A stretch of 32,671 nucleotides of DNA, taken from assembly GCA_013314855.1 (NCBI GenBank), contig JABUEW010000042.1, positions 1-32,671 on the forward strand, written 5' to 3'. This DNA comes from Bacillota bacterium. Its GTDB lineage: Bacteria; Bacillota; Clostridia; Acetivibrionales; DUMC01. The notes beneath the pieces are model-generated. The model worked only from the letters and a program-made list of their open reading frames with translations. It made no database searches and was not told where the DNA came from. Positions within the stretch are counted from its first letter, which is position 1; every line of letters starts with the position of its first letter. The position numbers and the translations under genes are program-made. This document shows positions 3,579 to 25,049 of the stretch, piece after piece.

Positions 3579-3664
<86 letters not shown>

Positions 3665-3688: not shown

Positions 3689-4792
3689 TCAGTTTCGCTC
3701 ACTGCAAAAAACAACTGTAAAGTAACTTGTCGTCTCACTGCTTCTTGCGCATGTAATTCTATCCGAATTGCTATGGCCAAGAATTTTCATATATTCAGCA
3801 CCTGACGCATCCATAGCTGAAAGCAGGGCGATAATGGAAGGCGGAGAGTCCATATAGTCATTATTAAAATGTTGAATCAGATTAATATCCCTGTTTTCTA
3901 TAGCTTTAATTGATATCTCATCCATTTGCTCAGCTTTCTCAAGAGGGAGATAATGAGAAAAATCAACAGAAGCAATTATCACACTTTTTTTATGTTCCTT
4001 TTCAAGTTTTTCATGAAGGTTTTGGCCAAGTTTTTGGGCTTTCTGCAATCCAAAATTTCCATGCAGCATGATTGGTACGATTTTACTGTCAGGCATATAA
4101 TACTTGATGTAGGGGACCAAACCTGCGATAGAGTGATCATCCTGGAGTAAATCAAAATTCATGTCTGCTATTTTTGAATCTATCAGCGAGTTCACAACAT
4201 CCGTATCCGCTTCCAATATACCAAAGGGAGTCTGCCAGCTCCAGTTTCCGGTATGTACTGTTTTTACTCCTGTTCCTTTGTGGTTGGGTGCTATCACCAC
4301 CACCACTTCAAATTGTTCAGCCGATATTGTCTTAAAAAAAGAAGCAATCATTCCCCCGGCAATGAGATGGTGGGGTACGATGCCGCCTTTTATTTCCGCC
4401 GGACATCCACTATCGCTTAACTCTTTAGCATTTATATCAACTGATTGCGCACTGTCTACTGACTGATTAAACTCTTTTTCACAATAGTATCTGCATTGAA
4501 GCCTTTTAGCACTTACCTGCAGATTATTTTGCAGGTGGGGCTGTTGTTTAAACGAGGCTCCAGGCACAGCATTCCTGTTACCCTGAATATTAGATGAAAT
4601 AGATGACAAACGAAGGAAGAACGTATTTTGCCAGCGCTCAAATATCGGCTGGCTTGAGACACTGTACCCGAATATCGGCTGGATTGAGGCATCATAAATT
4701 ACAGTACGATAATATGCTCCGGAAAGTAGCAGTATCATACATAATCCGGTTATTATAACAAATATAATAAAATGTTTATTAATGTATTTCAT
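3689..4792 (-). CDS. Membrane-anchored Memo-family protein (AmmeMemoRadiSam system protein B)
   Basis: The 367-residue product has one hydrophobic N-terminal segment (about residues 7-27, FIIFVIITGLCMILLLSGAY), an unconserved linker to about residue 125, and then a Memo-like domain. Family marks include GGIVPHHLIAGGMIASFF, VVVIAPNHKGTG, WQTPFGILEADTDVV, DDHSIAGLVPYI, SVDFSHYLP and a C-terminal SYFTVVF strand. Most bacterial family members are soluble and about 270 residues long, so the anchor and linker are additions that put the domain outside the cell. Memo proteins resemble extradiol dioxygenases and bind metal or copper; the reaction is unknown here. It starts 12 bp after the stop of the alpha-2-macroglobulin gene with only a weak GGTGA ribosome site, so it is probably translationally coupled to it. 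A radical-SAM or AMMECR1 partner is not in this window. Confidence 0.8.
   Translation of the reverse strand: MKYINKHFIIFVIITGLCMILLLSGAYYRTVIYDASIQPIFGYSVSSQPIFERWQNTFFLRLSSISSNIQGNRNAVPGASFKQQPHLQNNLQVSAKRLQCRYYCEKEFNQSVDSAQSVDINAKELSDSGCPAEIKGGIVPHHLIAGGMIASFFKTISAEQFEVVVVIAPNHKGTGVKTVHTGNWSWQTPFGILEADTDVVNSLIDSKIADMNFDLLQDDHSIAGLVPYIKYYMPDSKIVPIMLHGNFGLQKAQKLGQNLHEKLEKEHKKSVIIASVDFSHYLPLEKAEQMDEISIKAIENRDINLIQHFNNDYMDSPPSIIALLSAMDASGAEYMKILGHSNSDRITCARSSETTSYFTVVFCSERN
4641..4690 (-). repeat. Short direct repeat inside the Memo-like gene
   Basis: AATATCGGCTGG at 4641-4652 recurs at 4671-4682 with matching flanks (TTGAGAC/TTGAGGC), a 30-bp period. It encodes SIQPIF and SSQPIF in the extracellular linker just after the membrane segment, and looks like a small in-frame duplication. 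Confidence 0.6.
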
Positions 4793-4804
4793 TATTATTC
4801 ACCA

Positions 4805-7800
4805 TTATTCACCTACTTTTTTTATCTCCACCTGTACCTTTTCAGCAAACCCACAAATATCACTAAGACTATGCTTCATATACGTATAATCAGCTGTAAA
4901 TTGTCCCGGTGTTACTGCCCGCGCATAGTAGCTAATGCTTCTTTCCCGGTATTTGCTGTTTTTATTATAATAGAATCCAAATACTACCTTCTGCCCATTT
5001 CTTTCCACAGGATACCACTTCTGGTCAAATTGGTTGGCGGCTGAAACATACCGTAATCCGGCAGGAAGAATATCTGTAATCTCGTAATAGCCGTCGGGAG
5101 CGGTTTCTGAAAACTCAGGCTCCAGGGTGATTTTGATCAGCTGGGATTGGTTGAAACTCGATTGTGTTGCACCATCTACACTGTACATTCTTTTTATTTT
5201 TACCAGTTCATTAGCATCTTCCGCGAAATCCGTTATCGGTGCTGTATAGCTTGAGGTTACGGAAACATCACCTGTGATATTGGAAAATTTTATGTTTTGC
5301 AAAGCTTCAGGTGTAAGCACAAGCTTGAATACTTTGTTTTTATCCAGTGATACATTCTCTTTCCGCCCGTTTACCTCTACTGTAAAACTGCCTGCCTGGT
5401 TGGTGTCAGGAGTCATGTGGGTAACATATATCAACCTTTCTATATTATTAAGGATATACCGTGTGGAGTTGTCCTGTACATATTTAAATAAATCGTCCTT
5501 TTCAGGTGCATTGATTTTAGCAGCAAGAACAGAGCACAGGGAGGTAAGTTCAATAGTATCATCCCTGCCGGCTTTGGAGTCAATATATACATATGGGCTG
5601 TTTGTTACTCCATGTTGATTGATTATATCGTTGTAAACATTCCGCGCTTCATTCAAACTGCCAAGTTCAGCAAGAGCAATGCCGAGGTACAGTTTTTCTT
5701 TGATTCCTATATTTGATAGTTCATCAGGATGTGTATCAGACTGCAGGTCTGCGTTCAGCAGATTTTCAATATCAATTAAAACCGGCTCGTTTAGTGCTGC
5801 CAATCCCCAGAGGGAAGCTGCAGCATCTTCCGCGGTAACATTGGTGTTTTCGAGGGTTTTATAAAAGTACCACTTCATCGCTGTTTTGTCAAATAAATCA
5901 TAGGAGATGGAGTTGTTTAAAGAACTGATTTTTGCGGTTATTTCAGGATTGCTGCTGTCATAGGGAAGCAGCGCAATCCCTCCGTCATATTGCTGATATG
6001 ATTCCAATTGATAGTCTTCCGGGTTTTCTACCCATCTCATTTCTTCTCCATCTCCATAATGTTTTTTAATTAATTCACTTGCAATTTTTCCGGAAAGCTT
6101 CTGGTCGACACGCTCCCCCCAGCTATACAGCAATGAAAGCAGAGAGTTATAATAGGTTGATGTTCCTTCGTTATAGAATGAAAGAGTGGTAAGAGACTTC
6201 CCGCCTGCCGGTTTTAAACTGTCTGTAAGCTTGTAGTACTCTAGTTTACTTGCTTCCAGCAAGCTTTTTACTACCTTGAAATCCCTTTTTATTGCATCGT
6301 TGTATTTACCCTGCTTTGCACTTACTGTAACGGAATAATAGCCTTCTTCCAGTTTTCCTAATTCTATGTTTGTCAAACTATTGCCAATACCTTCTGCTTG
6401 ATAAGTTTTCTTATCTGCTTGATTAGTTTTCTCATCTGTATATTTCTGTTTGCTATCTTTACTAATATCAGCCTTCTTTTCAAGCAAAACAGTATACTCT
6501 ACTTTTTTATCGCTTTCGAGATGCGTGCCGAAGCTTCTGGCAGATATGGCAACTGTATCTCCATCCATAAAAACATTATTAAATATTACATCAACAAAAA
6601 AAGGCAGTTTTACAGGAATATTAATTTTGCCGCTTCCGGCTTTCAAATCATCGCTCGTCTTCTGGTAAGCGACCCCCTGAAAAGTAATTCTCCAGGATGT
6701 AAGGTTATCCGGCAGTTTGAAGCTTGTTTTTCCTTTACCATTGTTGTCTGTTTTAATAGTGCCAAAAAAGGCATTATCCTTAAATATGAACCTGACGGAT
6801 TGAGTTCCGCCTTCCCCTCCCATTTCCGGTGCGCCAAAATTAATATTTAAAGGTTTATAAGATAAATATTCCGAAAGTATTCCTGAGTTAAAGCAATATT
6901 GATACAGGGCGGCAAGGGTATCCACTTGCTGGTTATAAACAGCAAAAAAAGCCTCATCTACAACACTTAAGTTTACTTCGCTTATGCATGGGTTTCCCTG
7001 CGCATCTTTTACATCGATCTCCAGTTGTACGGTGTCGCCAGGCCGGTACTCCTGCTTATCTGTTTTCACATCAATTTTCAATTCTTTCTCTTTGTAATCA
7101 TAGCCAATCAGCTTGTTTCCCGCATCAAATACATTTTTACCATCAAAATATACTGCCTTTACATATATATTAGGTATATAATCTTTTGTAAAGTTAAAGT
7201 TAAAGTTGGGTTCACTTACCACGGTATATGAGAGTATTCCATTTTTGAGAGTCATGTACAGGAAACGGTTGTTTGGCATAGCGGGCAACTCAAGATTGTT
7301 CTTTTTAACAGCTAAACTTACCGTATCTCCCAACTTAAATTTTGCATTATTGTTTTCTGTGTTAATAGAATATCTATCAATATTTCCATCCTGAGGTTGA
7401 GCATATCTATATAAATATACTGTTTCCACAATGGATTTCTGCCTCGAATCGACACTCTCAACCTCGATAATGTAATTTTCATTTTCCTCAATTGGAAATT
7501 CATAAGAGTATTTGCCGTTTAATGTATTGGCACTAAACTCCTGCAGGAGATTTTTAACTTCAAAATAACGGTATTTTTTCTGTACCTTCTTATTGATAAA
7601 ATCATAATACTGGCCTATTTCTTCACGGTCCCAGTGCTGCTTGTAAATTCGTATTTTTAAAGGGATATCCGTTGTGTCTCCCCGGTATTGGTCTACATTA
7701 TACCAAAAGTCTGATTGCGTTTTAAGTTTCTCCAGCTCTATGCGGTTTGTTTTAACCTCTATCAGCCCTGCCTGGTTTTTGGAAGAAGCATTTACCTCTA

Positions 7801-10006
7801 TCATTGTATCTCTCGGGAAAACCATGACATTGCTGTAAGAATAAATTTCCTCTTCCTCTGCTTTTGCGTTGTTAATATTTATGTTTAGAGTGAGAGGATG
7901 CCATGAATTAACGGTAGATAAAGGTATTATATCCAAACCGGCTTTACCATTTTCATCACAAACTATATTTCCTTCTTTACGGGTATCCCAGGTAGTGTAG
8001 TACGAGTATCTTAAGTCCATACCTGATACGGGTGAGCCTTCAAAAAAGCTGGCCTGGATATCCACACTTAACTTTTCCCACTCGAACATTACTTTTTTAT
8101 CCGGAGTAATATCAACCTTATAGGCAGGTTTTGTGTATTGTCTTACGTCAAAATATTTCTGAATAACTGTTTCATCTCCCAATTTAAGCCGGATAAAATA
8201 ACTGCCCGGATTAAGATTGGACAGTTCCATGCTGCTTTTGAAAGTGCCAGCCTCGGATATGTCTATTTCCCTGCTTAAAATCTCCGATAAGGTTGAATTT
8301 TCCATATAAGCATAGTCTGTCCCATATGTATACTCTGCACGATGTAAATAAAGTGTGCCCTTAGAAGGTAAATCCCCTCCAATTCTCGGCCTTACTATGC
8401 CCCAGATTTGTACAGTGTCATCAGGGAGGTATAAACCTCGATCAGTGTACAGGTATGTCCAATACTTTAGTGCACTTTTGGAAACGGAATAATTGTAATC
8501 AAAATATTGCCAGGTATAATATGAAAGAGGTGCCAGGAAAACCGGGCCATCATCTTTCGAAATAGTAAAGAACAACATCTGGTTTTCTGGGCTCTTTAGG
8601 GCTTTCAACTCATTCGAGTCCTTGAATACCTTCTCCGGTATTACTGCAACACCATCCTTACCGGTTTTTACCGGCTGAATTTTATCAGATGTCAAAGATG
8701 TCTGTGATGTCTGTGATGTCTGAGATGTTTGAGGTGTTTGAGATGCCTGAGATGTCAGAGGTACCAAGGATATCGAAGCTCCCTCCACCGGCTTACCAGT
8801 GCTGGAACTGTTAACCCATACAAGGCTTTCATGTGACCCTGCCATAACATATACAGCCATATCATTTACCTGAATATGAGTTTGATATGTTGCATTTTTA
8901 GATTTTACGCTTATCAGGTAGTGACCTTCCGACAAATTTGAAGGGAATACTATAAAACTTCCGTACCAGTAGTTACCGCTATTATTTATAACTCTGGTGC
9001 TGAATTCACTTATCTTTTGCAGCTTGCTGGTATCAAACTTGAGGCTGCTGTTTCTGATGAATACTCGATAAGCAGGCGTGTCATATTGCTTCAGGTTTTC
9101 CAGCAAATCATCCACATTTGAATATTTATATACCTCTACTGAAATATCCTGGTCTTTAAAGTCCTGGCTTGCATATACCTCAAGTATGGGCTCAACCTGT
9201 GGGGTAAAGTTATAAAGTATGTCTGTAAAACTGAGGTACTCAGTGTTTTCCTGTTCAGGTGATTTGCGTGTCTCAAATGTAAAAGTATAATCTTCGGGGA
9301 GGGTTTCATCACTACCCTTAAGCCTCAGTCCTTTTTTTACAGTAACAGTATATATGGTACCATAATCCAGCTTTTCCGGCATAAAGACTACTGTTTTGCG
9401 GTACTGTTGGAATCTTCCGTTGACTTTGGGTGTTATTTCGAAATATTGTTCAATGTTTTCCACACCTTCATGAGTAAAGCTTAATTCTATGCCTGAATCT
9501 ACAGGTACATAGGTGCTTCGGTCACGAGGCAATGTTCTGACCAGTCCAAATGATGTTTTTGTTTGAAACGCCCATGAATAATTGTAACCGGATGTTAAGC
9601 TGATTTTATAGATAGTGTTGGGTTTTAGAGCATTACTAAAATTGATGTGAAATTCCTTATCCGAAACCTCTTTAATCTCATAAGCCTGCTGCGGAGTGAT
9701 GGTTAAAGCTTTTTGAAAAAACGATTTGGATTGTTTATTTTCACATAGAATTTTAAAATCGGAATTTACATCAACTCCTGTGCTGTCTGCCACCATTGGA
9801 ACAATGTCAATAGCACCATCAATTTTTAAATAGAGATTGTCATTATTACTGTCAGCATAAGTATCTCCCTGACTATATGACGAAGAAGTCCTGCCGGACA
9901 GCAGATTTGGTATTACCAATGAAGTTATTATAAGTATGGAAATAACAGTGATGACGGCAACACTGATGACTAATTTTTTGTTTTTAAACATATCTTTAAG
10001 ATTCAT
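4805..10006 (-). CDS. Alpha-2-macroglobulin family protein, membrane-anchored, lacking the thioester cysteine
   Basis: The 1733-residue protein starts with one transmembrane anchor (about residues 11-34) and then has Ig/MG-like beta domains that project outside the cell. Family marks are an MG domain with YTDRGLYLPDDTVQIWGIVR near residue 520, the bait-region core (EYRPGDTVQLEIDVKDAQGN, then VNLSVVDEAFFAV) near residues 990-1035, and the A2M core KTSFKLPDNLTSWRITFQG near 1085-1100, followed by the helical thioester-domain region and a C-terminal receptor-like beta domain. Where thioester members have a CxEQ motif, this one reads SWGERVDQKLS (W1296-S1305), so covalent trapping is not possible. 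Bacterial A2Ms are thought to protect the periplasm or envelope from proteases; PbpC, the usual partner in Gram-negatives, is absent. ATG 10006 has a well-spaced GGGGGA. It is the first gene of an operon with the Memo-like gene. Confidence 0.85.
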   Translation of the reverse strand: MNLKDMFKNKKLVISVAVITVISILIITSLVIPNLLSGRTSSSYSQGDTYADSNNDNLYLKIDGAIDIVPMVADSTGVDVNSDFKILCENKQSKSFFQKALTITPQQAYEIKEVSDKEFHINFSNALKPNTIYKISLTSGYNYSWAFQTKTSFGLVRTLPRDRSTYVPVDSGIELSFTHEGVENIEQYFEITPKVNGRFQQYRKTVVFMPEKLDYGTIYTVTVKKGLRLKGSDETLPEDYTFTFETRKSPEQENTEYLSFTDILYNFTPQVEPILEVYASQDFKDQDISVEVYKYSNVDDLLENLKQYDTPAYRVFIRNSSLKFDTSKLQKISEFSTRVINNSGNYWYGSFIVFPSNLSEGHYLISVKSKNATYQTHIQVNDMAVYVMAGSHESLVWVNSSSTGKPVEGASISLVPLTSQASQTPQTSQTSQTSQTSLTSDKIQPVKTGKDGVAVIPEKVFKDSNELKALKSPENQMLFFTISKDDGPVFLAPLSYYTWQYFDYNYSVSKSALKYWTYLYTDRGLYLPDDTVQIWGIVRPRIGGDLPSKGTLYLHRAEYTYGTDYAYMENSTLSEILSREIDISEAGTFKSSMELSNLNPGSYFIRLKLGDETVIQKYFDVRQYTKPAYKVDITPDKKVMFEWEKLSVDIQASFFEGSPVSGMDLRYSYYTTWDTRKEGNIVCDENGKAGLDIIPLSTVNSWHPLTLNININNAKAEEEEIYSYSNVMVFPRDTMIEVNASSKNQAGLIEVKTNRIELEKLKTQSDFWYNVDQYRGDTTDIPLKIRIYKQHWDREEIGQYYDFINKKVQKKYRYFEVKNLLQEFSANTLNGKYSYEFPIEENENYIIEVESVDSRQKSIVETVYLYRYAQPQDGNIDRYSINTENNNAKFKLGDTVSLAVKKNNLELPAMPNNRFLYMTLKNGILSYTVVSEPNFNFNFTKDYIPNIYVKAVYFDGKNVFDAGNKLIGYDYKEKELKIDVKTDKQEYRPGDTVQLEIDVKDAQGNPCISEVNLSVVDEAFFAVYNQQVDTLAALYQYCFNSGILSEYLSYKPLNINFGAPEMGGEGGTQSVRFIFKDNAFFGTIKTDNNGKGKTSFKLPDNLTSWRITFQGVAYQKTSDDLKAGSGKINIPVKLPFFVDVIFNNVFMDGDTVAISARSFGTHLESDKKVEYTVLLEKKADISKDSKQKYTDEKTNQADKKTYQAEGIGNSLTNIELGKLEEGYYSVTVSAKQGKYNDAIKRDFKVVKSLLEASKLEYYKLTDSLKPAGGKSLTTLSFYNEGTSTYYNSLLSLLYSWGERVDQKLSGKIASELIKKHYGDGEEMRWVENPEDYQLESYQQYDGGIALLPYDSSNPEITAKISSLNNSISYDLFDKTAMKWYFYKTLENTNVTAEDAAASLWGLAALNEPVLIDIENLLNADLQSDTHPDELSNIGIKEKLYLGIALAELGSLNEARNVYNDIINQHGVTNSPYVYIDSKAGRDDTIELTSLCSVLAAKINAPEKDDLFKYVQDNSTRYILNNIERLIYVTHMTPDTNQAGSFTVEVNGRKENVSLDKNKVFKLVLTPEALQNIKFSNITGDVSVTSSYTAPITDFAEDANELVKIKRMYSVDGATQSSFNQSQLIKITLEPEFSETAPDGYYEITDILPAGLRYVSAANQFDQKWYPVERNGQKVVFGFYYNKNSKYRERSISYYARAVTPGQFTADYTYMKHSLSDICGFAEKVQVEIKKVGE
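8687..8760 (-). repeat. 9-bp tandem repeat encoding Thr-Ser-Gln units
   Basis: Degenerate 9-bp units of the type GATGTCTGT (plus strand) repeat about eight times inside the alpha-2-macroglobulin gene. On the coding strand they give a run of SQT/TSQ triplets near residues 417-440. The unit length keeps the frame, so it can expand or shrink without breaking the gene. Confidence 0.75.
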
Positions 10007-10170: not shown

Positions 10171-10740
10171 TTACTTTTCCATTAAACCGGAAAATATTAC
10201 TTTAAACATGGAATCTCTTATTTCTGTCAGCTCATACTTGTCTTTATTCTTAAGATAATATTTGCATGAACTGTCAAGCATACCTATTATGCCTGCCGCA
10301 ACCAGTTCATAATTTGCAGGAACTATTATTCCGTATTTATTACCTTCTTTCAGCAAATTCGCAATAAACTTTAAATACCTTTCCTTCAGTTGGGTAATTT
10401 CCGAGATGATTTCTTCATCCAGACCGCTTGTAATCTCATTTAGAAAAATAGTGGCAAGTTCGCTATACTGCAAGTATAAATCAATATTTTTATCCAACAC
10501 TCTTTTTAGTTGCTCATTAATGGGCAGATTACTATTAATCTCTTTTTGAACCTCATTTATTATAAAATCCAATCCTTCTGTTACCAGCGCTTTAAATAAT
10601 TCGGCCTTACTGGGAAAGTTATAATAGAGAGTACCTTTTGCAACCCCTGCGGCATTAGCTATTTCATCCATGCTGGCCTTATGGTAGCCTGATTTTGAAA
10701 AAACCGATACTGCTGCATCTAATATTTTTTGTCTACTCAA
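10171..10740 (-). CDS. TetR/AcrR-family transcriptional regulator
   Basis: The product of about 189 residues has a classical TetR N-terminal helix-turn-helix domain: ILDAAVSVFSKSGYHKASMDEIANAAGVAKGTLYYNFPSKAELFKAL (quoted in parts: SMDEIANAAGVAKG is the HTH, TLYYNFPSK the recognition-helix end). The C-terminal ligand and dimer domain is helical and not recognisable as to ligand. The frame opens at GTG 10749, but AGGTGAT at 10751-10745 overlaps that codon and is correctly placed for TTG at 10740, so I chose the TTG start. A perfect palindrome upstream (10836-10849) is the likely operator and implies autoregulation. The gene reads toward the alpha-2-macroglobulin operon, which has its own promoter. 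No efflux pump or other obvious target lies nearby. Confidence 0.88.
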   Translation of the reverse strand: MSRQKILDAAVSVFSKSGYHKASMDEIANAAGVAKGTLYYNFPSKAELFKALVTEGLDFIINEVQKEINSNLPINEQLKRVLDKNIDLYLQYSELATIFLNEITSGLDEEIISEITQLKERYLKFIANLLKEGNKYGIIVPANYELVAAGIIGMLDSSCKYYLKNKDKYELTEIRDSMFKVIFSGLMEK

Positions 10741-10835
10741 AACAATCACCTGCCGTTAACATATGAATTTACCTCAATTATTGGCTAAATTTATTCCAAT
10801 TATTTATTGACCTTGTTCACAAAAATAGTTATTTA

Positions 10836-11298: not shown

Positions 11299-14073
11299 AT
11301 GGCAATAGGATTTCCACAGGAAGATAATATCAGAGCAGTAGAGTTCCCACATTTTCCTACCAGACAACAAGCTGTAATCTGGAGAAATTGGGGAATGGTT
11401 CCCGTTGAACGGTTAGCTCAAGTATTAAAGACCGATGAACGAAACATTTTAAATCTTGCAGAAGATATGGGTTTAGTTATCCCGCCCAGTATTAATAAAT
11501 ATTGGCTGGAGAGGGGTTACATTACAATTATACGGGCAAACTGGCACTTGCTTACATATAAACAGATACTTACACTTTTAGCATGGAGTGATGAAAAACT
11601 GAAATATACACTCAAAGAAGATGACTTCCTGTACATAAAACTAGGCTCTTTCAAACCTGATTTAGATGAAGTGACATACAGGCCTCTTTCTATTGAAGAA
11701 AAAGAACGAACAAAGGAGATTAGAGAAATACTGGCAAAACACTTTCCACAAAAACAGTTTACGGATATGGAGGCCTTTGATTTCCTAAATAGATTTATTT
11801 TAGATAAAGACTTTGACAAAGGTACAGATTTAAATCTACAAAAGGATAATACTAGGGTTAATACTTTCATTAGCAGGTTTCAAAAAATAATGGGAAATAA
11901 TTGGCGAATTAGGCTGGCAAGGGCTTCAGAAAATGGCAACAATAATAATGAAAATAATAATGATGAAAAAAATAATGAAATAGTCCTTGACATTAAAACA
12001 GATCCGAATCTTAAGTCAGAGAGCCATACAATAGAAATTAACCATAACAAAGTATATATAACAGCTGTAGATGAAGTGGGTCTTCTAAGAGGATTACAGT
12101 GGGTTGCTAAAGAAGTGGACGCAAATGGATGCTTATCAATTAAAAAAGGTATAATTAAACGTAAAACTCGTTTTGATTTGAGATACATTTATTCTTACTT
12201 TGCGGTTTATGGAGATCCCCTTTTGGACCCGGAAATCAATCCTTATCCTGATGGCTTGCTTTCCTGCCTTTCGGAACTTGGTATTAACGGTATATGGCTC
12301 CAAGGCGTACTATACAGTCTTGTTCCATGGAAAAAAGCACCGGAATTATCAACAGGCTGGGAAAAGAGGATAGAAGGGCTTAGGAATATTGTTAAAAGAG
12401 CAGGAGATTATGGTATCGGGGTATATTTGTATCTTAATGAGCCCAGGGCAATGCCGGAGGAATTCTTTAAGGAGCATCCTGAATGGAAGGGTTCCACTTT
12501 TCATGGATTAACATCCCTTTGTACCTCACATGAGGATATTCAAGATTATCTTCGGACCGGAACAGCAAGATTGTTTAGTGAGGTTCCCGACTTGGCTGGT
12601 GTTTTTACAATAACCATGTCGGAAAATCATACCAACTGTTACTCTCATACTTTTGCCGGGAACAAACCTGATTGCCCTATCTGTTCGAAGCGCTCACAAG
12701 CTGAGGTAATTGCTGAAGTAAACAATTTAATTGCTGAAGGTGCACACAGTATAAAACCTGACGCCCGGGTAATAGCCTGGACATGGGGATGGCATCCCCA
12801 GTGGTCTGATGAAGCTATTTCTTTGCTAAATGATAATGTAATGGTAATGTGTACCAGTGAAGAGGCAATGCCTACAAATATTTCCGGTGTTAAAGGAGAA
12901 GTTATTGACTATACTATGTCGATACCCGGACCTGGGGAAAGGGCTGTAAGAAATTGGAGAAAGGCAGCTGCTTTAGGCCATAAAACAGTTGCAAAAGTTC
13001 AGTTTAACAATACCTGGGAATGCTCTGCAGTACCATATTTACCAGTAATGGATTTAGTTGAGAAGCATATTAACAATCTAAGTAATTCAGGTGTAAATGG
13101 ATTGATGCTAAGCTGGACTTTAGGTGGATATCCATCTCTAAACTTAGAATTTGCTTCACAACTCTACTGGGAAGAAGAAATAATATATTTAGATCCACCT
13201 GCTAGTACCGGAGCACCAGTTACGAATGATGGCTCATCAATAGATACAGAACATACAGAATATCAAGAAAATGCAAGACTTCAGTTTGCCATACAAAAAT
13301 TTGGAGAAAAAGCAGCTCCTTACATTGTAAAAGTCTGGAGTACTTTCAGCAATGCCTTTAGGGAATTTCCATTCAATATAGGGGTTGTTTATACTGCGCC
13401 TCAGAACTACGGGCCCATGAACCTTTTATTCGAAAAGCCCACAGGATACAGAGCTACAATGATAGGATACCCCTATGATGACCTTGAAAGGTGGCGTTCA
13501 ATTTATCCGGAAGACATATTTGAAGAGCAGTTCCGCAAGCTGAGCGAAAAGTGGAAGGATGGGCTTGAATTTATAAGCAAGGCGAAATCAAGTATTAATA
13601 AGAATGATAATGATAGTAACAATGATAATGATAGTGATAATAACAATGACAGTGATGATGACAGCAGCAATGCTAATGGTATTAATAGTGCCTATGCCAT
13701 AAGGTTAAATTATATAAATGAACTGGAGTCCGTATCCTCTGCCGCATACTGCCACTTCAGAAGCACATACCTTCAAATTAAATTTGTGCGGTTGAGGAAT
13801 AAATTATTGCAGGCAGAAGGACTGGATGGAGCTAATCAGGCAGGAGAAGCGGTGAACATCCCGCTTACCGGCATTATAGATGAAATTATAAGTGTAATTG
13901 ATGAAGAAATAGAACTGGCAAAAATGCTTTATGGTATTGTAAAACGGGACTCCAGGATAGGTTATGAAGCCAGCAACCATTATTATTATACACCACGGGA
14001 TTTGCAGGAAAAGGTTATTAACTGCGAGTATCTACGCAAAAAATATCTAAACTATTACGCAAAAAATAATTGA
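11299..14073 (+). CDS. Large unclassified glycoside-hydrolase-like protein (TIM-barrel, GH20-like architecture)
   Basis: The 924-residue protein has no signal peptide. Residues 1-130 form a helical region with two HTH-like repeats (PVERLAQVLKTDERNILNLAEDM and LTYKQILTLLAWSDEKLKYTL, each given in part). Residues about 230-275 look like the alpha/beta domain that precedes the barrel in GH20-type enzymes (DEVGLLRGLQWVAKE). The likely barrel runs from about 290 to 640, with strands such as GINGIWLQG, a candidate acid residue E442 in TITMSENH, and a CPIC pair (C459, C462). The rest is helical. Two Asn/Asp-rich tracts (about residues 209-229 and 767-795) interrupt it. ATG 11299 is 8 nt after GGGGGA. 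First gene of a LacI-controlled operon, 15 bp before the next. I cannot assign a CAZy family or substrate; the glycosidase call is inference. Confidence 0.6.
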   Translation: MAIGFPQEDNIRAVEFPHFPTRQQAVIWRNWGMVPVERLAQVLKTDERNILNLAEDMGLVIPPSINKYWLERGYITIIRANWHLLTYKQILTLLAWSDEKLKYTLKEDDFLYIKLGSFKPDLDEVTYRPLSIEEKERTKEIREILAKHFPQKQFTDMEAFDFLNRFILDKDFDKGTDLNLQKDNTRVNTFISRFQKIMGNNWRIRLARASENGNNNNENNNDEKNNEIVLDIKTDPNLKSESHTIEINHNKVYITAVDEVGLLRGLQWVAKEVDANGCLSIKKGIIKRKTRFDLRYIYSYFAVYGDPLLDPEINPYPDGLLSCLSELGINGIWLQGVLYSLVPWKKAPELSTGWEKRIEGLRNIVKRAGDYGIGVYLYLNEPRAMPEEFFKEHPEWKGSTFHGLTSLCTSHEDIQDYLRTGTARLFSEVPDLAGVFTITMSENHTNCYSHTFAGNKPDCPICSKRSQAEVIAEVNNLIAEGAHSIKPDARVIAWTWGWHPQWSDEAISLLNDNVMVMCTSEEAMPTNISGVKGEVIDYTMSIPGPGERAVRNWRKAAALGHKTVAKVQFNNTWECSAVPYLPVMDLVEKHINNLSNSGVNGLMLSWTLGGYPSLNLEFASQLYWEEEIIYLDPPASTGAPVTNDGSSIDTEHTEYQENARLQFAIQKFGEKAAPYIVKVWSTFSNAFREFPFNIGVVYTAPQNYGPMNLLFEKPTGYRATMIGYPYDDLERWRSIYPEDIFEEQFRKLSEKWKDGLEFISKAKSSINKNDNDSNNDNDSDNNNDSDDDSSNANGINSAYAIRLNYINELESVSSAAYCHFRSTYLQIKFVRLRNKLLQAEGLDGANQAGEAVNIPLTGIIDEIISVIDEEIELAKMLYGIVKRDSRIGYEASNHYYYTPRDLQEKVINCEYLRKKYLNYYAKNN
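11928..11985 (+). repeat. AAT-rich codon repeat (Asn tract) in the glycosidase-like gene
   Basis: A run of AAT/AAC/GAA codons gives an Asn/Glu-rich insert at about residues 211-229, between the helical N-terminal region and the GH20-like alpha/beta domain. It looks like a trinucleotide expansion in a linker. Confidence 0.7.
13591..13685 (+). repeat. AAT/GAT codon repeat (Asn/Asp/Ser tract) in the glycosidase-like gene
   Basis: Repeated GATAATGATAGT-like units give an Asn/Asp/Ser-rich segment at about residues 765-795, between helical blocks of the C-terminal region. All units are multiples of three bases, so the frame is kept. Confidence 0.75.
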
Positions 14074-14088
14074 ATTGGGGGAGTTAAT

Positions 14089-16188
14089 GTGGACATGGGG
14101 AATATGTGGTTTAAAAAAAGTTTCAGGCGTAATTTGATTGATATGCATATTGCCGATTGGGACGAAAGGTTTTTAAGTGGATTTAATCCTGAAACTTACG
14201 CAGAAATGTTAAAACTGGCTGATGTTGATACAGCAATAATATATTCGGGTTCTTGCCTCGGGAACTGCTACTGGCCGACAAAGGTGGGGCATATGCATAA
14301 AAGCCTGAAAGGAAAGGACATATTAAAAGAAACTATAATAGAGTGCAAAAAAAGAGGTTTGAATGTTGTTGTATACTTCAATATATGGTCAAGATGGGCT
14401 TACGATACATATCCTGATTGGCGCATCAGAGATTGGGAAGGAAAAGGAATGATGGTTGAGAGAGGCGCCAGGTATGGAGTATGCTGTCCCAATTCCCCTT
14501 TTAGGGATTATGTAAAAGCCCAAATAGAAGACCTTTGCAGTAACTACGAATTTGATGGAATGTGGATAGACATGATAGGGTGGATCGGTATGGTATGCTA
14601 TTGCCCACATTGCAAGAAAAGGTATTACGAAGAGACAGGCATGGAAATTCCTTATACAATTGATTGGAAAGACAAGAACTGGGTTACATTCCAGAGAAAA
14701 AGGGAAGAATGGATGGCTGAGTTTGCTGAAATGATTACTAATACAGCCAAGGAAATTAAACCCGGTATTTCATTAGTACACCAATGTGCCTCATGGCTTA
14801 CAGGGTGGGCAGGTGGCGCATCTTACAGATTTTTTAAGCAAAGTGACTACCTGGCCGGTGATTTCTACTCGGGAGCGCTGGAACAGTCTCTTATATGCAA
14901 ATTCTTAAATTCAGTTACTGAAAACAGACCTATAGAGTTTATGACTTCCAGGTGTCCTGACCTTACAGACCACACCACTTTGAAACAAAAAGAACTTCTT
15001 GAAGCTCAAGTTTATTCCTCAATTTCAAATAATGCGGCCTTTGTTTTCATAGATGCTATAGACCCTGTAGGTACTATAAACCGTGAAGTTTATAAATTAA
15101 TGGGTAATATATTTAGAAATACAAAGTCGTATGAAAAATATCTGGACCCTTCGGCCAAACAATGCTTTGATGTTGGAATCTACATGGACTTTTCTTCTTT
15201 TATAAACTTTGATGATAATGGAAAACATGTAAAGGATGCATCGTATGGTACAAAACAAATTGAAAATACCTATAACATTGCAAAAACATTAATAGATTAT
15301 AATATTCCCTATGGTGTTGTTACTGCAAAAAATCTTAATGAATTGGAAGAATATCAAGTAATTGTATTATCTGATATTGTTATGCTTGATCAAGCTGAGA
15401 TAGAGGCACTAAAAAAGTTTGTACAAAACGGAGGAAGTATATATGCCAGTGGTCGTACTTCGTTGTTAACCAAAGACGGAAGCACTACCGGTGACTTTCA
15501 GTTGGCAGAACTGTTTGGGGTTTCATATAATGGTGAAACAGATGAAAATATCACATATATGGCTCCAACTGAAAGTGGCCAGGAGTTATTTACAGGTTTT
15601 TCGAAGAAGTATCCCATGATGATTTCAGATACACAAATAAAAGTAAGAGTTGAAGATGGGACAAATTGTAAACCGGAGGTATTGGCAAAGCTTAGTTTAC
15701 CGTACACAAATCCGAAAGATAATAACCGGTTTTCTTCAGCTATAAGCAACCCTCCGGGAATTGATACCAATATTCCTTCAATGGTGCTTAACAGATATGG
15801 TAGAGGAAGGGTAATTTATTCTTCAGGTAAACTAGAAATCATAAAACATGAAGCTCATAGGGAAGTATTTGCAAACATTATTAAACATCTTTTTGCAAAA
15901 CCGGCTAGTTTTGAAACCAATGCGTATAAACCGGTTGAAATAACACTATTTAATCAAGATGAGAACAGACGGTACATAATAAATGTACTTAACTATCAGA
16001 AAGACCTGCCTAATATTCCTGTGGATGGAATATGGGTACGAATTTTTTTAGATGGGAAAATACCTGTAAGGCTCATTAAGTTGCCGGAGGAAGAAAACAT
16101 GGATTATGGCATTTACGAAAACCGGCTTGAATTTAAGGTACCAAAGCTGGAAGTATTTTCAATGTTTGCACTGGACTATGATTATTAG
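14089..16188 (+). CDS. Glycoside-hydrolase-like protein (GHL6 barrel plus beta-galactosidase-type trimerisation domain)
   Basis: The 699-residue protein has an N-terminal TIM barrel of the 'hypothetical glycosyl hydrolase 6' type: IDMHIADWDERF at the start, VVVYFNIWSRWAYDTYPDW, then FDGMWIDMIGW with candidate nucleophile D161, followed at once by a cysteine cluster CYCPHC (C170, C172, C175). Residues about 370-540 form a glutamine-amidotransferase-like domain (VIVLSDIVMLDQAEIEALKKF, given in part, then GGSIYASGRTS), as in the trimerisation domain of GH42 beta-galactosidases. A small beta domain ends the chain. There is no signal peptide, so it acts in the cytoplasm. The GTG start 14089 is placed 6 nt after GGGGGAG; ATG 14095 is possible. 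It follows the previous gene by 15 bp and is surely cotranscribed. Substrate unknown; the GHL6 group has no agreed activity. Confidence 0.75.
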   Translation: MDMGNMWFKKSFRRNLIDMHIADWDERFLSGFNPETYAEMLKLADVDTAIIYSGSCLGNCYWPTKVGHMHKSLKGKDILKETIIECKKRGLNVVVYFNIWSRWAYDTYPDWRIRDWEGKGMMVERGARYGVCCPNSPFRDYVKAQIEDLCSNYEFDGMWIDMIGWIGMVCYCPHCKKRYYEETGMEIPYTIDWKDKNWVTFQRKREEWMAEFAEMITNTAKEIKPGISLVHQCASWLTGWAGGASYRFFKQSDYLAGDFYSGALEQSLICKFLNSVTENRPIEFMTSRCPDLTDHTTLKQKELLEAQVYSSISNNAAFVFIDAIDPVGTINREVYKLMGNIFRNTKSYEKYLDPSAKQCFDVGIYMDFSSFINFDDNGKHVKDASYGTKQIENTYNIAKTLIDYNIPYGVVTAKNLNELEEYQVIVLSDIVMLDQAEIEALKKFVQNGGSIYASGRTSLLTKDGSTTGDFQLAELFGVSYNGETDENITYMAPTESGQELFTGFSKKYPMMISDTQIKVRVEDGTNCKPEVLAKLSLPYTNPKDNNRFSSAISNPPGIDTNIPSMVLNRYGRGRVIYSSGKLEIIKHEAHREVFANIIKHLFAKPASFETNAYKPVEITLFNQDENRRYIINVLNYQKDLPNIPVDGIWVRIFLDGKIPVRLIKLPEEENMDYGIYENRLEFKVPKLEVFSMFALDYDY

Positions 16189-16229
16189 GAAGGTTATTAG
16201 AAAAGAACCATGAAAAGGGAGGAGCAAAA

Positions 16230-17306
16230 ATGACTAGCAGAGAAAGGGTTATTAATGCACTAGATTTTAAAAGAACAGATAGAATACCAAGGTATGAAAT
16301 TTTTCTTCCTGGATTTATTGATAAATGGAGGAAGGCTAAAAACATGCCTGATGACAGCTGGATCTATGATTATTATAACAAAGTGGATATAGGGACAGTT
16401 ATAGCAGACCAGCATGGGCCTTATTATTCAAAAGCTGTTATACTTAAAAGAGAAGGCAGTGCTTATTATGAGTTGGATAGTTGGGGGAGGATACTTTATA
16501 AAAAGCAGAATGCTTTTTTTGAAAAGGAAGTTGATGTAGCAATTAAAGAAAAAGGCAAAGAACCTCCCTTTGAATCTCCCCTGGATAAGAACAGGCAAAA
16601 GGCTTTTATGGATATACCGCCTAAGTTCAAGGAAAGTTTTGCATTAGTATCAGGTGTATTAGGCCTTTATATGGGGTGTTCGAGACTTAGGGGAGAGGTA
16701 CAGTTTCTAATGGATATTGCTGAAGATGAGCCTTACTGCAAATATCTTGCAGGACGTCTTGCAGATTTTACTACAGAACTTGGTTTGAGCATTGTAGAGA
16801 TAACAGGTACAAAAGATACAGCCATATGGGTGTATGATGAGCTTTCCAGCAGAACCGGTCCCTTGTTTTCACCAAATAGCTTCTATAAAATATTTTTTCC
16901 GTGTTATAAAAAGATGATTGACACGTGGAAGAAAAATGGAGTTAAAAATGTGATATTGCATTGCGACGGAAATAGCCTACCTTTGCTTGACATAATTATA
17001 GAAGCAGGGTTTACCGGAATCCAAAGCCTGGCGCCTACAACAGGCATGTGGCTTCCTGATGTAAAGACCAAATATGGAAATAGACTTTCTTTAATTGGAG
17101 GAATGTGCAATATTTATACTCTGTCAAGTGGTACCAAAACCGAGATAGAAAAACAGACAAAGGCAATTGTTGAAGCTGCAAAAGAGGGTGGTGTAATAAT
17201 TGGTACTCATTCGATAGATGAAGATATACCTGTTGAAAACTATGACTACTATTATTCAGTGCTTGAAAAATATGATGAGATGTGGCCTGTTAGGAGTGGT
17301 GAATGA
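16230..17306 (+). CDS. Uroporphyrinogen decarboxylase / MtaA-type family protein
   Basis: The 358-residue protein has the URO-D (PF01208-type) barrel found in haem biosynthesis and in corrinoid-dependent methyltransferases. The N-terminus MTSRERVINALDFKRTDRIP is the usual family start. The HxC zinc-type motif of the methyltransferase branch appears as ILHCDGN (H244, C245 adjacent in sequence), with a later cysteine in LIGGMCNIY (C293), and the C-terminal GTHSIDEDIPVENYDYYY helix is typical. With no haem genes around and two glycosidases upstream (41-bp gap, strong GGGAGG site), it is more likely a methyl- or alkyl-group-processing enzyme than HemE. No corrinoid protein is encoded here, so the methyl acceptor is unknown. 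Last gene of the first LacI-controlled unit; no terminator hairpin follows. Confidence 0.8.
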   Translation: MTSRERVINALDFKRTDRIPRYEIFLPGFIDKWRKAKNMPDDSWIYDYYNKVDIGTVIADQHGPYYSKAVILKREGSAYYELDSWGRILYKKQNAFFEKEVDVAIKEKGKEPPFESPLDKNRQKAFMDIPPKFKESFALVSGVLGLYMGCSRLRGEVQFLMDIAEDEPYCKYLAGRLADFTTELGLSIVEITGTKDTAIWVYDELSSRTGPLFSPNSFYKIFFPCYKKMIDTWKKNGVKNVILHCDGNSLPLLDIIIEAGFTGIQSLAPTTGMWLPDVKTKYGNRLSLIGGMCNIYTLSSGTKTEIEKQTKAIVEAAKEGGVIIGTHSIDEDIPVENYDYYYSVLEKYDEMWPVRSGE

Positions 17307-17336
17307 TGAAAAGTATTGCGAATGATTATTAAGTTA

Positions 17337-17350
17337 TGCAAACGGTATCA
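17337..17350 (+). promoter_or_regulatory. LacI-family operator 3 (upstream copy, transporter operon)
   Basis: TGCAAACGGTATCA lies 30 bp after the URO-D-family stop codon. Its centre is 173 bp upstream of operator 4. The 396-bp stretch 17307-17702 holds only these operators, the promoter between them and a leader of about 190 nt; no gene is visible. Confidence 0.7.
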
Positions 17351-17475
17351 GATAAAGTATGTATCTTTTGAGAACTAAAACCTGTTATTATGCAAAGACT
17401 GAGAAATGTGACAGGATATGATTATTAGAATATTAGAATGTTTTACAAAAATAACAAAAATATTTTCAAATAGTA

Positions 17476-17504
17476 TTGACTTTGCATAGAATATTATATA
17501 AAAT
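17476..17504 (+). promoter_or_regulatory. Promoter of the M24/ASRT/transporter operon
   Basis: TTGACT (17476-17481) and TAAAAT (17499-17504) are separated by exactly 17 bp. The operator at 17510 follows after 5 nt and would cover the start site. Confidence 0.7.
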
Positions 17505-17509
17505 AAATA

Positions 17510-17523
17510 TGCAAACGTTATCA
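17510..17523 (+). promoter_or_regulatory. LacI-family operator 4 (start-site copy, transporter operon)
   Basis: TGCAAACGTTATCA sits directly on the predicted +1 of the transporter operon promoter, the classical position for steric repression. Confidence 0.75.
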
Positions 17524-17702
17524 GAATATAGGTAAGTTATAACAGTAAAAAGTATAATGCATTATCAAGTCGCTAAAACGCTTAAAAATTTTTTCGTATA
17601 AAACTAGAGAAAGGGGGAATTTCAAAACAACATATCTATTAAAATAAAAAAGCACAACTCTGGAATTCCAAAACACCACAACTCTAACAGGAGGTAAACG
17701 TA

Positions 17703-18875
17703 ATGGCTTATTATGATGTTAAAGAACATGGTGAAAGGATTGCTAAAGTAAAGGAAATCCTTGAAAACAATGATCTTGATTTTGCATTTGTCTATTATGA
17801 TGAATTCAACCTGGCAAACGGATGGTATCTTACAGCATGGTGTCCCCAGTTTGAAAGTGGGGCAGTATTAGTTCCAAGAGAAGGTGAACCCATGATATTG
17901 GGAGGGCCTGAAAGTGAACCCTTCGCAAAACAGGACAGCGCAATAAAAGAGACAAGAAATCTTCCCGTCTTTATGGTTCCTGACGAAGAATACCCAAATG
18001 CTATAATTATTAATTTTAAAGAGTTATTTAATGAAATAAGTTCAGGCAAAAAAATTAAACGGGTCGGAATGGTTGGAGCAGAACAAATGCCGGTATCTGT
18101 GTATAAAGAAGTAGCAGAGAACTTCAAAGGAGTAGAATTAATTGATATCACAGGTGACTTCCTTAAACTTAGATACATAAAAAGTAAATGGGAAATTGAG
18201 CAAATCAGGCAGGCTTTTAAATTGGCACATTATTCCTATAAAGCAATGATAGAAAAAATCAAGCCTGGTGTACCCGAATATGAAGTAGCTGCAGCAGGAG
18301 AAGCGGCAGCACGGGCATTAGGAGCTAACGGATTTGCTTTTAAAACTATTGTAGGCAGTGGAAAACGCTCTAATGCAGTGGTTCCTACAGCGATGGACAA
18401 GATAATGGAAACCGGCGAGATGGTTATGTTAGGAATTTCCCCTAGATGGAAAGGATATAGCGGAGTGTTTGGAGATACTTTACCTGTAAGCGGGAAATTT
18501 ACACCTTCCCAGGAAGAATGCCTGAAGCATGTTAAAGAAGCCATGTACCTGACAAAACAGCAATTAATTCCAGGTAAAATCGGTAAAGAAATTGATGCGC
18601 CTGCCAGGGCATATTTTGAAAAAGTTGGGTATCTCAAATATCTTGTCTGTCCTTTTGCGCATACAATTGGAATTATGGAAGCGGAAGCACCCTTTTTCGG
18701 GCCTAACAGTACTGATGAACTGAAACCTGGGATGACAGTATGTGTCGATGTAAGTTTTTTCGGACACCCTGAATTCAACGGTTTAAGGATTGAAACAGGC
18801 TATGAAATTACAGAAAGCGGACCTGTACCCTTAAGTGAAGAAATGGATAAAATACTTCTAGGAAAAAGGAGATAG
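17703..18875 (+). CDS. M24-fold (creatinase/prolidase-like) protein with a degenerate metal site
   Basis: The 390-residue protein has the two-domain layout of prolidases and creatinase: a creatinase-type N-terminal domain (about 1-160) and a pita-bread C-terminal domain (about 165-385) introduced by LRYIKSKWEIEQIRQAFKLA. In metallopeptidases five ligands (Asp, Asp, His, Glu, Glu) hold two metals. Here the first Asp position reads LGIS (G244), the second may be D258 in VFGDTL, the His is present (H320 in FAHTIG), the first Glu is replaced by D349 in CVDVS, and the last Glu is kept (E364 in LRIET). This pattern resembles metal-free creatinase more than a peptidase, so the reaction may be C-N hydrolysis of a small molecule. 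It leads the operon after a good GGAGG site (17690-17694) and is followed 4 bp later by the ASRT gene. Confidence 0.82.
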   Translation: MAYYDVKEHGERIAKVKEILENNDLDFAFVYYDEFNLANGWYLTAWCPQFESGAVLVPREGEPMILGGPESEPFAKQDSAIKETRNLPVFMVPDEEYPNAIIINFKELFNEISSGKKIKRVGMVGAEQMPVSVYKEVAENFKGVELIDITGDFLKLRYIKSKWEIEQIRQAFKLAHYSYKAMIEKIKPGVPEYEVAAAGEAAARALGANGFAFKTIVGSGKRSNAVVPTAMDKIMETGEMVMLGISPRWKGYSGVFGDTLPVSGKFTPSQEECLKHVKEAMYLTKQQLIPGKIGKEIDAPARAYFEKVGYLKYLVCPFAHTIGIMEAEAPFFGPNSTDELKPGMTVCVDVSFFGHPEFNGLRIETGYEITESGPVPLSEEMDKILLGKRR

Positions 18876-18879
18876 TTCT

Positions 18880-19248
18880 ATGTGTATAGAGAAAGGGAAA
18901 AGAAACTGGGTTTTTTCCGATGGGGATCTGCCTCCCGCCGGAGACAAAGAACCATTTGGACATGAAGCTTTAATGGTTACCAATATGAACGAAGAAGACG
19001 CAAGCATAACTATTGATATTTATTTTGAGGATAAAGACCCGGTGAAAGGTATAAATATAACAGTACCTGCCGAAAGAGTAAAGTGCTTTAGATTGGACAT
19101 ACCTATAGGAGATAGGCAGTATCAAATACCTAAAGGCCAATATTCATTGGCTTTACATAGCAATATTCCTGTTGTTGCTGTGTTCGGGAGGCTTGATGTA
19201 AGGCAGCCAAACCTTGCTTATTACTCGGTGCAGGGGTATGGGTATTAA
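18880..19248 (+). CDS. ASRT-family (sensory rhodopsin transducer-like) small-molecule-binding protein
   Basis: The 122-residue protein matches the Anabaena sensory rhodopsin transducer family (PF07100-type), a small beta-sandwich. Family marks are RNWVFSDGDLPP near the start, GHEALMVTNM, the IYFEDKDP strand and the C-terminal FGRLDVRQPNLAYYS. No rhodopsin is present, so the light-sensing name is not meaningful here; the family as a whole is regarded as small-molecule binding, and a homologue of known structure exists in Thermotoga. It has no signal peptide or membrane segment and no other domain. It starts 4 bp after the M24-like gene with the ribosome site AAAAGGAGAT, so the two are translated together. 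Its place between an amidohydrolase-like enzyme and a solute-binding protein suggests it senses or carries the imported compound; this is inference. Confidence 0.85.
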   Translation: MCIEKGKRNWVFSDGDLPPAGDKEPFGHEALMVTNMNEEDASITIDIYFEDKDPVKGINITVPAERVKCFRLDIPIGDRQYQIPKGQYSLALHSNIPVVAVFGRLDVRQPNLAYYSVQGYGY

Positions 19249-19260
19249 TCTAATTCCAGG

Positions 19261-19298
19261 TTTAAACTCAAAAAAGAGTTTAAATTATAAATTTATAA
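19261..19298 (+). other. Intercistronic hairpin and palindrome before the solute-binding protein gene
   Basis: TTTAAACTC (19261-19269) and GAGTTTAAA (19276-19284) form a perfect 9-bp stem around six A residues, directly followed by the 14-bp palindrome TTATAAATTTATAA (19285-19298). No T-run follows. It lies just upstream of the solute-binding protein ribosome site and may act as a processing or stabilising element. Confidence 0.5.
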
Positions 19299-19311
19299 AG
19301 GAGGAGTTTCT

Positions 19312-21003: not shown

Positions 21004-21044
21004 TGTGCTATAATATTATAAGCATGAATACCTATTTTTAAATT

Positions 21045-21076
21045 ACAGGGAGTGAGGAGATTTTCCCACTCCCTGT
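21045..21076 (+). other. Stable intercistronic stem-loop after the solute-binding protein gene
   Basis: ACAGGGAGTG (21045-21054) pairs perfectly with CACTCCCTGT (21067-21076), extended inside by GG/CC around one bulged A and a 7-nt loop. A purine- and AT-rich stretch, not a T-run, follows. This is the usual position for an element that protects the upstream transcript or partly attenuates the permease genes. Confidence 0.65.
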
Positions 21077-21135
21077 AAAATAATATAAATTGCCGGTTGG
21101 TAAAGTGAATGAATGGAAGGGGGTATGTGTTTATT

Positions 21136-22074: not shown

Positions 22075-22118
22075 ATATGAGCAATAAATAATATTATTGT
22101 GTGACAGGAGGGGATATC

Positions 22119-23012: not shown

Positions 23013-23051
23013 CGGGTTTGCATATAGATAAGGTCTTACAGGAGGAAAGAC

Positions 23052-23505
23052 ATGCATCAAAGTACTCAACTTAAAAATAAGAAATGTTTTGTTAAAAAAT
23101 TACTATGTGTTTTTATAACAGTTTGGGAACCTTATATATAATGACTATCATAAAAAGTATCCTTCAGAAAGGGCAGAAACAGCACAGAAATGGAATTCAA
23201 TTATTAAGGAAACTGATGAGAAGTTTGGGTATGCTGCAGTATATGGTGGAAATGCCTATGTGTATGAACCTATAATATATCTTGGGAAGCCTTCACTATT
23301 ACCACTTCCTTCCATGTTGCCTTCCATTTATGATACCTTTAAGAAAGTAGTTGACTCACTGGAATCAGCAAAAATTATTGCCATGGTAACAGAAGAAGTA
23401 GTTATGGCCGCCACTTTTCTTGTAGTGTTACCTTTGTTGATAGTATATTTATTTTTGCAAAGGCAGTTTGTTGAGGGAATTGAACGTACTGGGCTTGTGG
23501 AATAA
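23052..23505 (+). pseudogene. Decayed transporter gene (signal-like start, frame change, permease-like C-terminus)
   Basis: ATG 23052, after a good GGAGGAAAG site, starts a frame with a hydrophobic signal-like segment (CFVKKLLCVFITVWE) that stops at 23139-23141. A second frame, open after a TAA at 23116-23118, continues with YNDYHKKYPSERAETAQKWN, GYAAVYGGNAYVYEPIIYLG and a C-terminal hydrophobic segment ending LFLQRQFVEGIERTGLVE, which closely resembles the end of a MalG-type permease and is unlike the paralogue just upstream. The only start in the second frame is a GTG at 23260 with no ribosome site. I read this as an internally deleted and frameshifted gene, possibly once a binding-protein/permease fusion; the central part is not recognised. 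Confidence 0.6.
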
Positions 23506-23559
23506 TGAGCTAAGTAAATTATATTAAACTTACAAAATATGATATTGGAGGGATCATAT

Positions 23560-24987: not shown

Positions 24988-25016
24988 AAAATATGTAGAA
25001 ATTTAAAAATATAATA

Positions 25017-25030: not shown

Positions 25031-25049
25031 ATCGGATGTGCAAAAATAT

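Follow-up and report, generated by a model that had tools for sequence, protein, structure and literature searches.

We describe here a pair of adjacent genes, coding for an A2M-family (alpha-2-macroglobulin) protein and for a Memo-domain protein predicted to be exported, whose products very probably form a two-component cell-surface module. The existence of this module is held with high confidence. Its full reading, in which Memo would be the catalytic component and the A2M its scaffold, sensor or substrate, is judged fairly probable, and confidence in a maturation step is low. The traits that lead to this proposal, all read from sequence, are predicted anchors in both proteins, adjacency with a frequent 4-bp overlap, near one-to-one co-occurrence in Clostridia, and a predicted thioester-free TED fold. 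The pair is located in the window, i.e. the whole stretch of 32,671 nucleotides that was analysed (Bacillota bacterium, assembly GCA_013314855.1, contig JABUEW010000042.1). The features discussed below, in window coordinates, are:

10171 to 10749, minus strand: gene of a TetR-family regulator (Pfam-type match), upstream of the A2M gene and on the same strand, listed without implying that it belongs to the unit
4805 to 10006, minus strand: gene of the A2M-family protein, an ORF of 1733 aa with Pfam domain matches, an N-terminal anchor and no CxEQ
9911 to 9967, minus strand: N-terminal hydrophobic segment of the A2M, residues 14-32 (hydropathy, mean 2.84)
6806 to 6829, minus strand: glycine-rich motif PEMGGEGG at the bait position, A2M residues 1060-1067, conserved in the alignment
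6092 to 6124, minus strand: SWGERVDQKLS at the thioester position, A2M residues 1295-1305, located by alignment column
5414 to 6169, minus strand: helical domain equivalent to the thioester domain, A2M residues ~1280-1531 (AF2 model)
4793 to 4804, minus strand: intergenic gap between the A2M and Memo genes, 12 bp, holding a Shine-Dalgarno-like GGTGA
3689 to 4792, minus strand: gene of the exported Memo-domain protein, an ORF of 367 aa with an N-terminal anchor and the Memo domain at residues ~126-362
4715 to 4771, minus strand: N-terminal hydrophobic segment of Memo, residues 8-26 (mean 2.71; helix 6-35 in the AF2 model)
4370 to 4372, minus strand: Memo His141, paired with the MEMO1 metal ligand His49 in the alignment
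4280 to 4282, minus strand: Memo His171, paired with the MEMO1 metal ligand His81 in the alignment
3848 to 3850, minus strand: the invariant Memo residue Asp315, which probably corresponds to MEMO1 Cys244 (ambiguous loop alignment)
3579 to 3664, plus strand: tRNA-Leu, convergent, the downstream boundary of the pair

On the minus strand, the A2M gene lies 5' and the Memo gene 3', and the GGTGA in the 12 bp between them is a plausible ribosome site. Promoter-like matches in the region numbered 37, against a mean of 26.3 (sd 6.2) after shuffling, a count that neither supports nor opposes a single promoter. Further along, positions 11299-31100 encode glycosidase-like proteins, an ABC transporter and a LacI-type regulator (these last two named by eye from the sequence), a probable sugar-catabolic cluster. 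Inside it lie an M81/MlrC-type metallopeptidase (23539-24987) and an alpha-L-rhamnosidase ORF (29598-31100), probably truncated, which stops some 50 residues into the 339-position match to the catalytic domain.

By hydropathy, the A2M and Memo have one strong N-terminal hydrophobic segment each, and their Lys-rich N-termini suggest an N-in/C-out topology for both. A preliminary description of this DNA had proposed a Memo-like protein anchored outside the membrane and encoded 12 bp downstream of the A2M; the segment at residues 8-26 and the measured gap bear this out, and the predicted topology would put the domain outside. Among related proteins, the hydropathy test was passed by 113 of 121 Memo ORFs and by 50 of 60 A2M ORFs above 1500 aa, counts in which ORF starts are those of the caller and two Memos and one A2M appear twice.

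The pair proved to be conserved. In 58 genomes of the order, taking as strong a PF01875 match with E<1e-13, a strong Memo was found in 15 genomes and an A2M of this type in 16: both were present in 15, the A2M alone in one and neither in 42, 13 of which had a more distant A2M. In the A2M-only genome (G037), the A2M is split over two frames and ends ~140 bp before the contig end. The two genes share a contig in 14 of the 15 genomes; in G057 they are on two contigs, the A2M being cut by the contig end. At one locus (L064, the same as L104), they are separated by an ORF of 251 aa that matches a beta-helix. Fisher's test on the co-occurrence gives 5e-13, a value that overstates the evidence because the genomes of the order are related. 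In the class survey (245 genomes), the seven strong exported Memos (E<1e-29) and the seven top A2Ms (798-887 bits, the next one scoring 621) fell in the same seven genomes, two of them also in the order set, and 32 further genomes had a lower-scoring A2M without a strong Memo of the exported type.

Weak Memo-family matches were excluded from the pair counts. PF01875 matched in 33 of the 58 order genomes, 15 times at E<1e-13 and 18 times at 2.7e-10 to 8.7e-4, and TIGR04336 in 91 of the 245 class genomes, with seven strong and 84 weak matches (from 1.7e-11). The weak ones are mostly frames of 450-500 aa, which we take for LigB-AMMECR1 fusions on the basis of motifs in 22 and of Pfam in one. As for the A2M paralogues, no Memo was found in their 18 loci (11-18.5 kb); in L084 and L090, however, the contig breaks off on the side expected to carry it. 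Three genomes (G030, G031, G033) possess both kinds of A2M, and Memo stands beside one kind only.

Patterns derived from the exported-Memo family were used to scan 84,980 species genomes. Among the best 80 of the 227 relatives, hereafter the named loci, an A2M lies directly upstream on the same strand in 66 and elsewhere in the locus in three; eight have a Memo-CapA fusion and no A2M in the locus, and three have no A2M in reach (L120, L145, and L111, which is the two-contig case of G057). Hosts include Clostridia (Petroclostridium, Pseudobacteroides, Sedimentibacter, Syntrophomonas, Tepidanaerobacter and MAGs) and candidate phyla (Moranbacteria, Uhrbacteria, Zambryskibacteria, Woesebacteria, Peregrinibacteria). 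When neighbours of these best 80 of 227 were clustered, an A2M turned up in 69 loci, against 10 for the next most frequent cluster. The commonest spacing was a 4-bp stop/start overlap (26 of the 69 loci measured), and longer overlaps may stem from the start choice of the ORF caller. Distances among A2Ms and among Memos were correlated over 61 pairs (r=0.735, against 0.192 for the best of 1000 permutations), as would be expected from co-inheritance alone. The order survey and this one are not independent, the DNA of at least 11 order loci being shared with named loci. The preliminary description had called for such a survey of adjacent A2M and Memo genes, and the pair held in the 15 order genomes as in 66 of the 80 best named loci. 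The support for the link is genomic and sequence-based, from genomes that are related; that the genes are adjacent, coupled and, in Clostridia, almost always present together argues for one functional unit.

The window A2M matches A2M_BRD (E=2e-15), MG2 (6e-10) and A2M (9e-6) in Pfam, and weakly bMG3 and bMG10. It is placed in the A2M superfamily by its MG2, BRD and A2M domains, after which come a helical TED and a C-terminal MG domain. Alignment confirmed the earlier statement that it has no CxEQ: SWGERVDQKLS shares its column with the GCxEQ of some relatives. Two marks of Type I A2Ms are thus absent, since the column reads WGERVDQ and the neighbours are Memo, tRNA-Leu and the TetR regulator instead of pbpC (PBP1c). 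Lack of CxEQ with a retained bait region is the Type II (MagD-like) definition in PMC5764988; the window A2M has both, a likeness of features and not a phylogenetic placement in the MagD clade. The six-gene mag operon has no counterpart here, as one same-strand gene follows the A2M and then the convergent tRNA. In an alignment of 34 A2Ms of the order, the window protein and 15 close relatives read WGxR[VIL]DQ and 18 distant paralogues GxR[IL]DQ, with CxEQ at the thioester column in none of the 34. The alignment indicates that the thioester is missing through descent rather than by local accident. The loss, to which attention had been drawn initially, is real, but Type II A2Ms such as MagD are already known without CxEQ (PMC5764988), so that it is not new by itself. 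A second thioester-less clade (GxR[IL]DQ; L080-L097) exists in the same order, and no Memo or CapA was found near its members.

Among 51 full-length A2Ms (the window protein and 50 from Memo loci), 44 lack GCxEQ and seven carry it. All seven come from candidate-phylum genomes, and classical trapping may thus still operate there. An AF2 model of residues 1020-1733 (mean pLDDT 80.9, pTM 0.64) contains the helical domain, with SWGERVDQKLS between its helices 1 and 2; in this model, a TED-like fold persists despite the loss of the thioester. Its top matches in the PDB are E. coli A2M entries (4ziu: Z 16.0, 521 aligned, rmsd 13.8; 4ziq: Z 15.5, 598 aligned, rmsd 7.8), the large rmsd being taken over a multi-domain chain.

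At the bait position, an [AP]ExGG motif is the mark of Memo-linked A2Ms. It was tested with a loose regular expression placed behind an anchor and asking for the AE form and a glycine pair. Of the 72 A2M ORFs of the named set, 16 had no such anchor and were excluded, and 53 of the remaining 56 matched; the three that failed were L116 and L130, which carry Hint, and L099, which reads PEQGGEGG. The window protein itself, with PEMGGEGG, fails the AE form, PE being also found in L099. Among 19 clade-2 A2M ORFs, one matched, 17 did not and one had no anchor. Among 31 Memo-less A2M loci in which a stretch of 75 residues could be read, the motif was seen in one (L348, by chance from its look); for Hint-bearing A2Ms, this stretch is uninformative. 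A bait position that is conserved and glycine-rich, instead of variable, counts against a broad protease bait. The initial proposal of a protease-trap-like A2M paired with Memo therefore stands as regards a conserved envelope unit, and is weakened by the bait motif as regards a broad protease bait.

A Hint/intein-like domain of ~128-130 aa, with a CF start and an HN end, is inserted at the bait position of some A2Ms. It was present in nine of the 51 full-length proteins (L116, L130, L134, L138, L141, L143, L155, L162, L166), between the BRD and A2M domains and always in candidate-phylum genomes. PT-HINT was above cut-off in the three of these nine that were scanned, and GCxEQ is retained in six of the nine. 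Such a domain might cleave the bait region, or splice it, on its own. Hint-bearing A2Ms also occur in Patescibacteria without a Memo within the 1.5 kb examined, hence the Hint domain is not tied to the A2M-Memo pair. Among the literature matches listed, no paper pairing Hint with macroglobulin was found.

Turning to Memo, the window protein scores 116 bits with PF01875 (E=2e-33; cut-off 27). A phmmer search with it against the PDB gave no match, profiles being required. In its AF2 model (61-sequence alignment), a long N-terminal helix is followed by a disordered linker and then by the domain, where ten-residue pLDDT means are at least 90 from residue 131 onward. Structural matches to the model were headed by MEMO1 (7kq8: Z 27.5, rmsd 2.6, 256 aligned), followed by extradiol dioxygenases (Z ~19). 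Both the curated cut-off and the MEMO1 fold thus place it in the Memo family. HMMER paired His141, His171, His220, Asp277 and His280 with MEMO1 H49, H81, H131, D189 and H192. In a set of 119 distinct related Memos (92 standalone, 27 CapA fusions), His141 (117 aligned), His171 (118), Asp277 (119), His280 (119), Asp315 (117) and Thr355 (119) are invariant wherever aligned, and His220 is retained in 116 of 118.

According to PMC11081632, MEMO1 binds Fe or Cu via H49, H81 and C244, which are equated with LigB H12, H61 and E242, and its authors did not detect dioxygenase activity with the substrates tried. Equivalents of the two MEMO1 histidines are therefore present in all aligned Memos, as His141 and His171. 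No Cys was found in the window Memo loop corresponding to Cys244, and Asp315 stands there instead, with a Ser following at a four-residue spacing, the same as for the Cys in the LigB-AMMECR1 consensus ECGLRS. Because hhalign places a gap in this loop, we infer the equivalence from spacing, and with it a LigB-type 2-His-1-carboxylate set formed by the invariant His141, His171 and Asp315. As judged from these alignments, the window Memo is a member of an exported family in which two His and one Asp do not vary.

In Patescibacteria, the exported-Memo profile matched in 70 of 286 genomes, sometimes weakly. We analysed 40 loci, the next 40 best places after G292:C43 and not a random draw, two of which (L256, L259) repeat Memos of named loci. 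An A2M was directly upstream in 10 and nearby downstream in one (11 in total). A Memo-CapA fusion was present in 19, one of them (L268) also after an A2M, and a DUF3160 protein in four (L269, L270 and L277, L285; by Pfam for three, by blastp for L285). An uncharacterised family of ~380-690 aa was found in 22 (with a weak match in L278), and never in the same locus as an A2M. This family (L161:6913-8745 and relatives), located beside or near exported Memo, carries AECGKPVIYLYP...GFTVVEWGG; no Pfam family was above cut-off in the four members scanned. No motif common to the A2M, this family and DUF3160 was evident when consensus strings were compared by eye. Given how frequent these other contexts are, A2M is not the sole partner of exported Memo. 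For CapA (PGA_cap), Pfam gave confirmation in L161, L178 and L268, the other calls being made with a profile built from four sequences. The plasmid collection held one relative of the window Memo, again a Memo-CapA fusion: L209:3809-5560, a Rhizobium plasmid protein annotated amrB (by profile, and by tblastn to annotated CapA proteins).

In the reading that we favour, the A2M and Memo would meet outside the membrane. The invariant metal-type site is what places the chemistry in Memo and makes the A2M a scaffold or substrate: the Memo domain would be the metal-dependent catalytic part, acting through His141, His171 and Asp315, and the A2M its large scaffold, sensor or substrate, with the glycine-rich motif as a likely point of contact or processing. 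A conformational change may take the place of covalent capture. The role might resemble that of MagD/MagB or YfhM/PBP1c, an envelope macroglobulin with its operon partner. A bolder version, which we put forward tentatively and consider rather unlikely, is that exported Memo represents a novel type of metalloenzyme (two His, one Asp), working outside the cytoplasm, by which large proteins of the surface are matured or activated. For Clostridia, a single dedicated substrate is envisaged, the thioester-less A2M, processed at the glycine-rich bait site; in Patescibacteria it would act on exchangeable partners, i.e. A2M (often with Hint in the bait site), DUF3160 and the 380-690-aa family, or be fused directly to CapA. 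The A2M would then be a signal-gated surface switch and not a protease trap.

Envelope defence is the main competitor of the scaffold or substrate role: the A2M would be a Type II-like non-covalent trap for proteases or cell-wall effectors, anchored, stabilised or matured by Memo. MagD does trap TEV protease non-covalently without CxEQ, and depends on MagB, encoded in the same operon and possessing a transmembrane helix, both to be located at the membrane and to be cleaved (PMC5764988); it also protects against some peptidoglycan-targeting T6SS effectors (PMC12663445). The window A2M retains BRD and TED-like regions, as a trap would. We nevertheless find this doubtful, as the bait position of Memo-linked A2Ms is conserved and glycine-rich, the invariant metal-type site of Memo exceeds the needs of a mere anchor, and membership of the window A2M in the MagD clade is no more than putative. 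Memo might alternatively bind iron or copper outside the cell, or act as an extradiol-type dioxygenase, the A2M merely holding it. Its fold, nearest to MEMO1 and then to extradiol dioxygenases, the metal binding of MEMO1 and the classical 2-His-1-carboxylate set that two His and one Asp would form all speak for this, against which stand the lack of MEMO1 dioxygenase activity with the substrates tried (PMC11081632) and the hhalign gap at Asp315, whose equivalence is drawn from spacing. The named hosts, e.g. Pseudobacteroides and Sedimentibacter, are largely anaerobes, and O2-dependent chemistry, ring cleavage included, looks unlikely in them; the metal or redox role as a whole appears improbable.

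We give hardly any credence to the last explanation, that Memo is simply protein B of the AmmeMemoRadiSam system with an incidental A2M neighbour. This is what the best NCBIfam model would call it, TIGR04336 reaching 128 bits on the window Memo and matching all 61 members of the Memo alignment. However, the radical SAM model TIGR04337 finds its match on another contig (C62, 280 bits; C60 is below cut-off), and not on the window's C42, so that no radical SAM gene is encoded with this Memo. Beside that match lies a second Memo-family protein detected by TIGR04336, in which AMMECR1 is fused to LigB (by Pfam, in a scan that covered this protein and part of the window ORFs). The window Memo is, moreover, anchored and paired with an A2M. 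The assignment as protein B was accordingly disfavoured. For the exported family as a whole, this automatic name seems misleading. The AmmeMemoSam_rS match (G000:C62:10405-11307) has two in-frame stops in its span, which may reflect a true break of the gene or an artefact of the frame.

The physiological function of bacterial macroglobulins and of Memo proteins is settled in few cases only. With a unit that extends from Clostridia to Patescibacteria, each of the two acquires an obvious partner to test, and if the metal-type site of Memo is placed outside the membrane, its substrate may be easier to find there. As the preliminary description had supposed, no account of the A2M-Memo pair was found among the literature matches listed, although an earlier one may exist; the PCAD-Memo superfamily survey of Burroughs et al. 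2019 may have defined families or contexts of exported Memo before.

Compared with the AmmeMemoRadiSam system (TIGR04336, PF01871, TIGR04337), the window has the Memo domain in common, but LigB-AMMECR1 and radical SAM are encoded elsewhere and its Memo is anchored and A2M-linked. Human MEMO1 (PDB 7kq8) has the same fold and equivalents of H49, H81, H131, D189 and H192; it is cytosolic with Cys244 as a ligand (PMC11081632), whereas the window Memo is anchored, predicted to lie outside, and has an invariant Asp in the loop. MagD of P. aeruginosa resembles the window A2M by its lack of CxEQ, its envelope location and its operon partners, one with a transmembrane helix. It belongs to a six-gene mag operon and is periplasmic in a Gram-negative, with no Memo among the partners described in the available parts of PMC5764988 and PMC12663445, while the window A2M is itself anchored, is accompanied by a single constant partner and carries a conserved, glycine-rich motif at the bait position. 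E. coli YfhM (Type I, with PBP1c) likewise has a single envelope operon partner, and it is E. coli A2M that the C-terminal half of the window A2M matches best; YfhM has CxEQ and a peptidoglycan synthase as partner (PMC4498604), whereas the window A2M has no thioester and Memo as partner.
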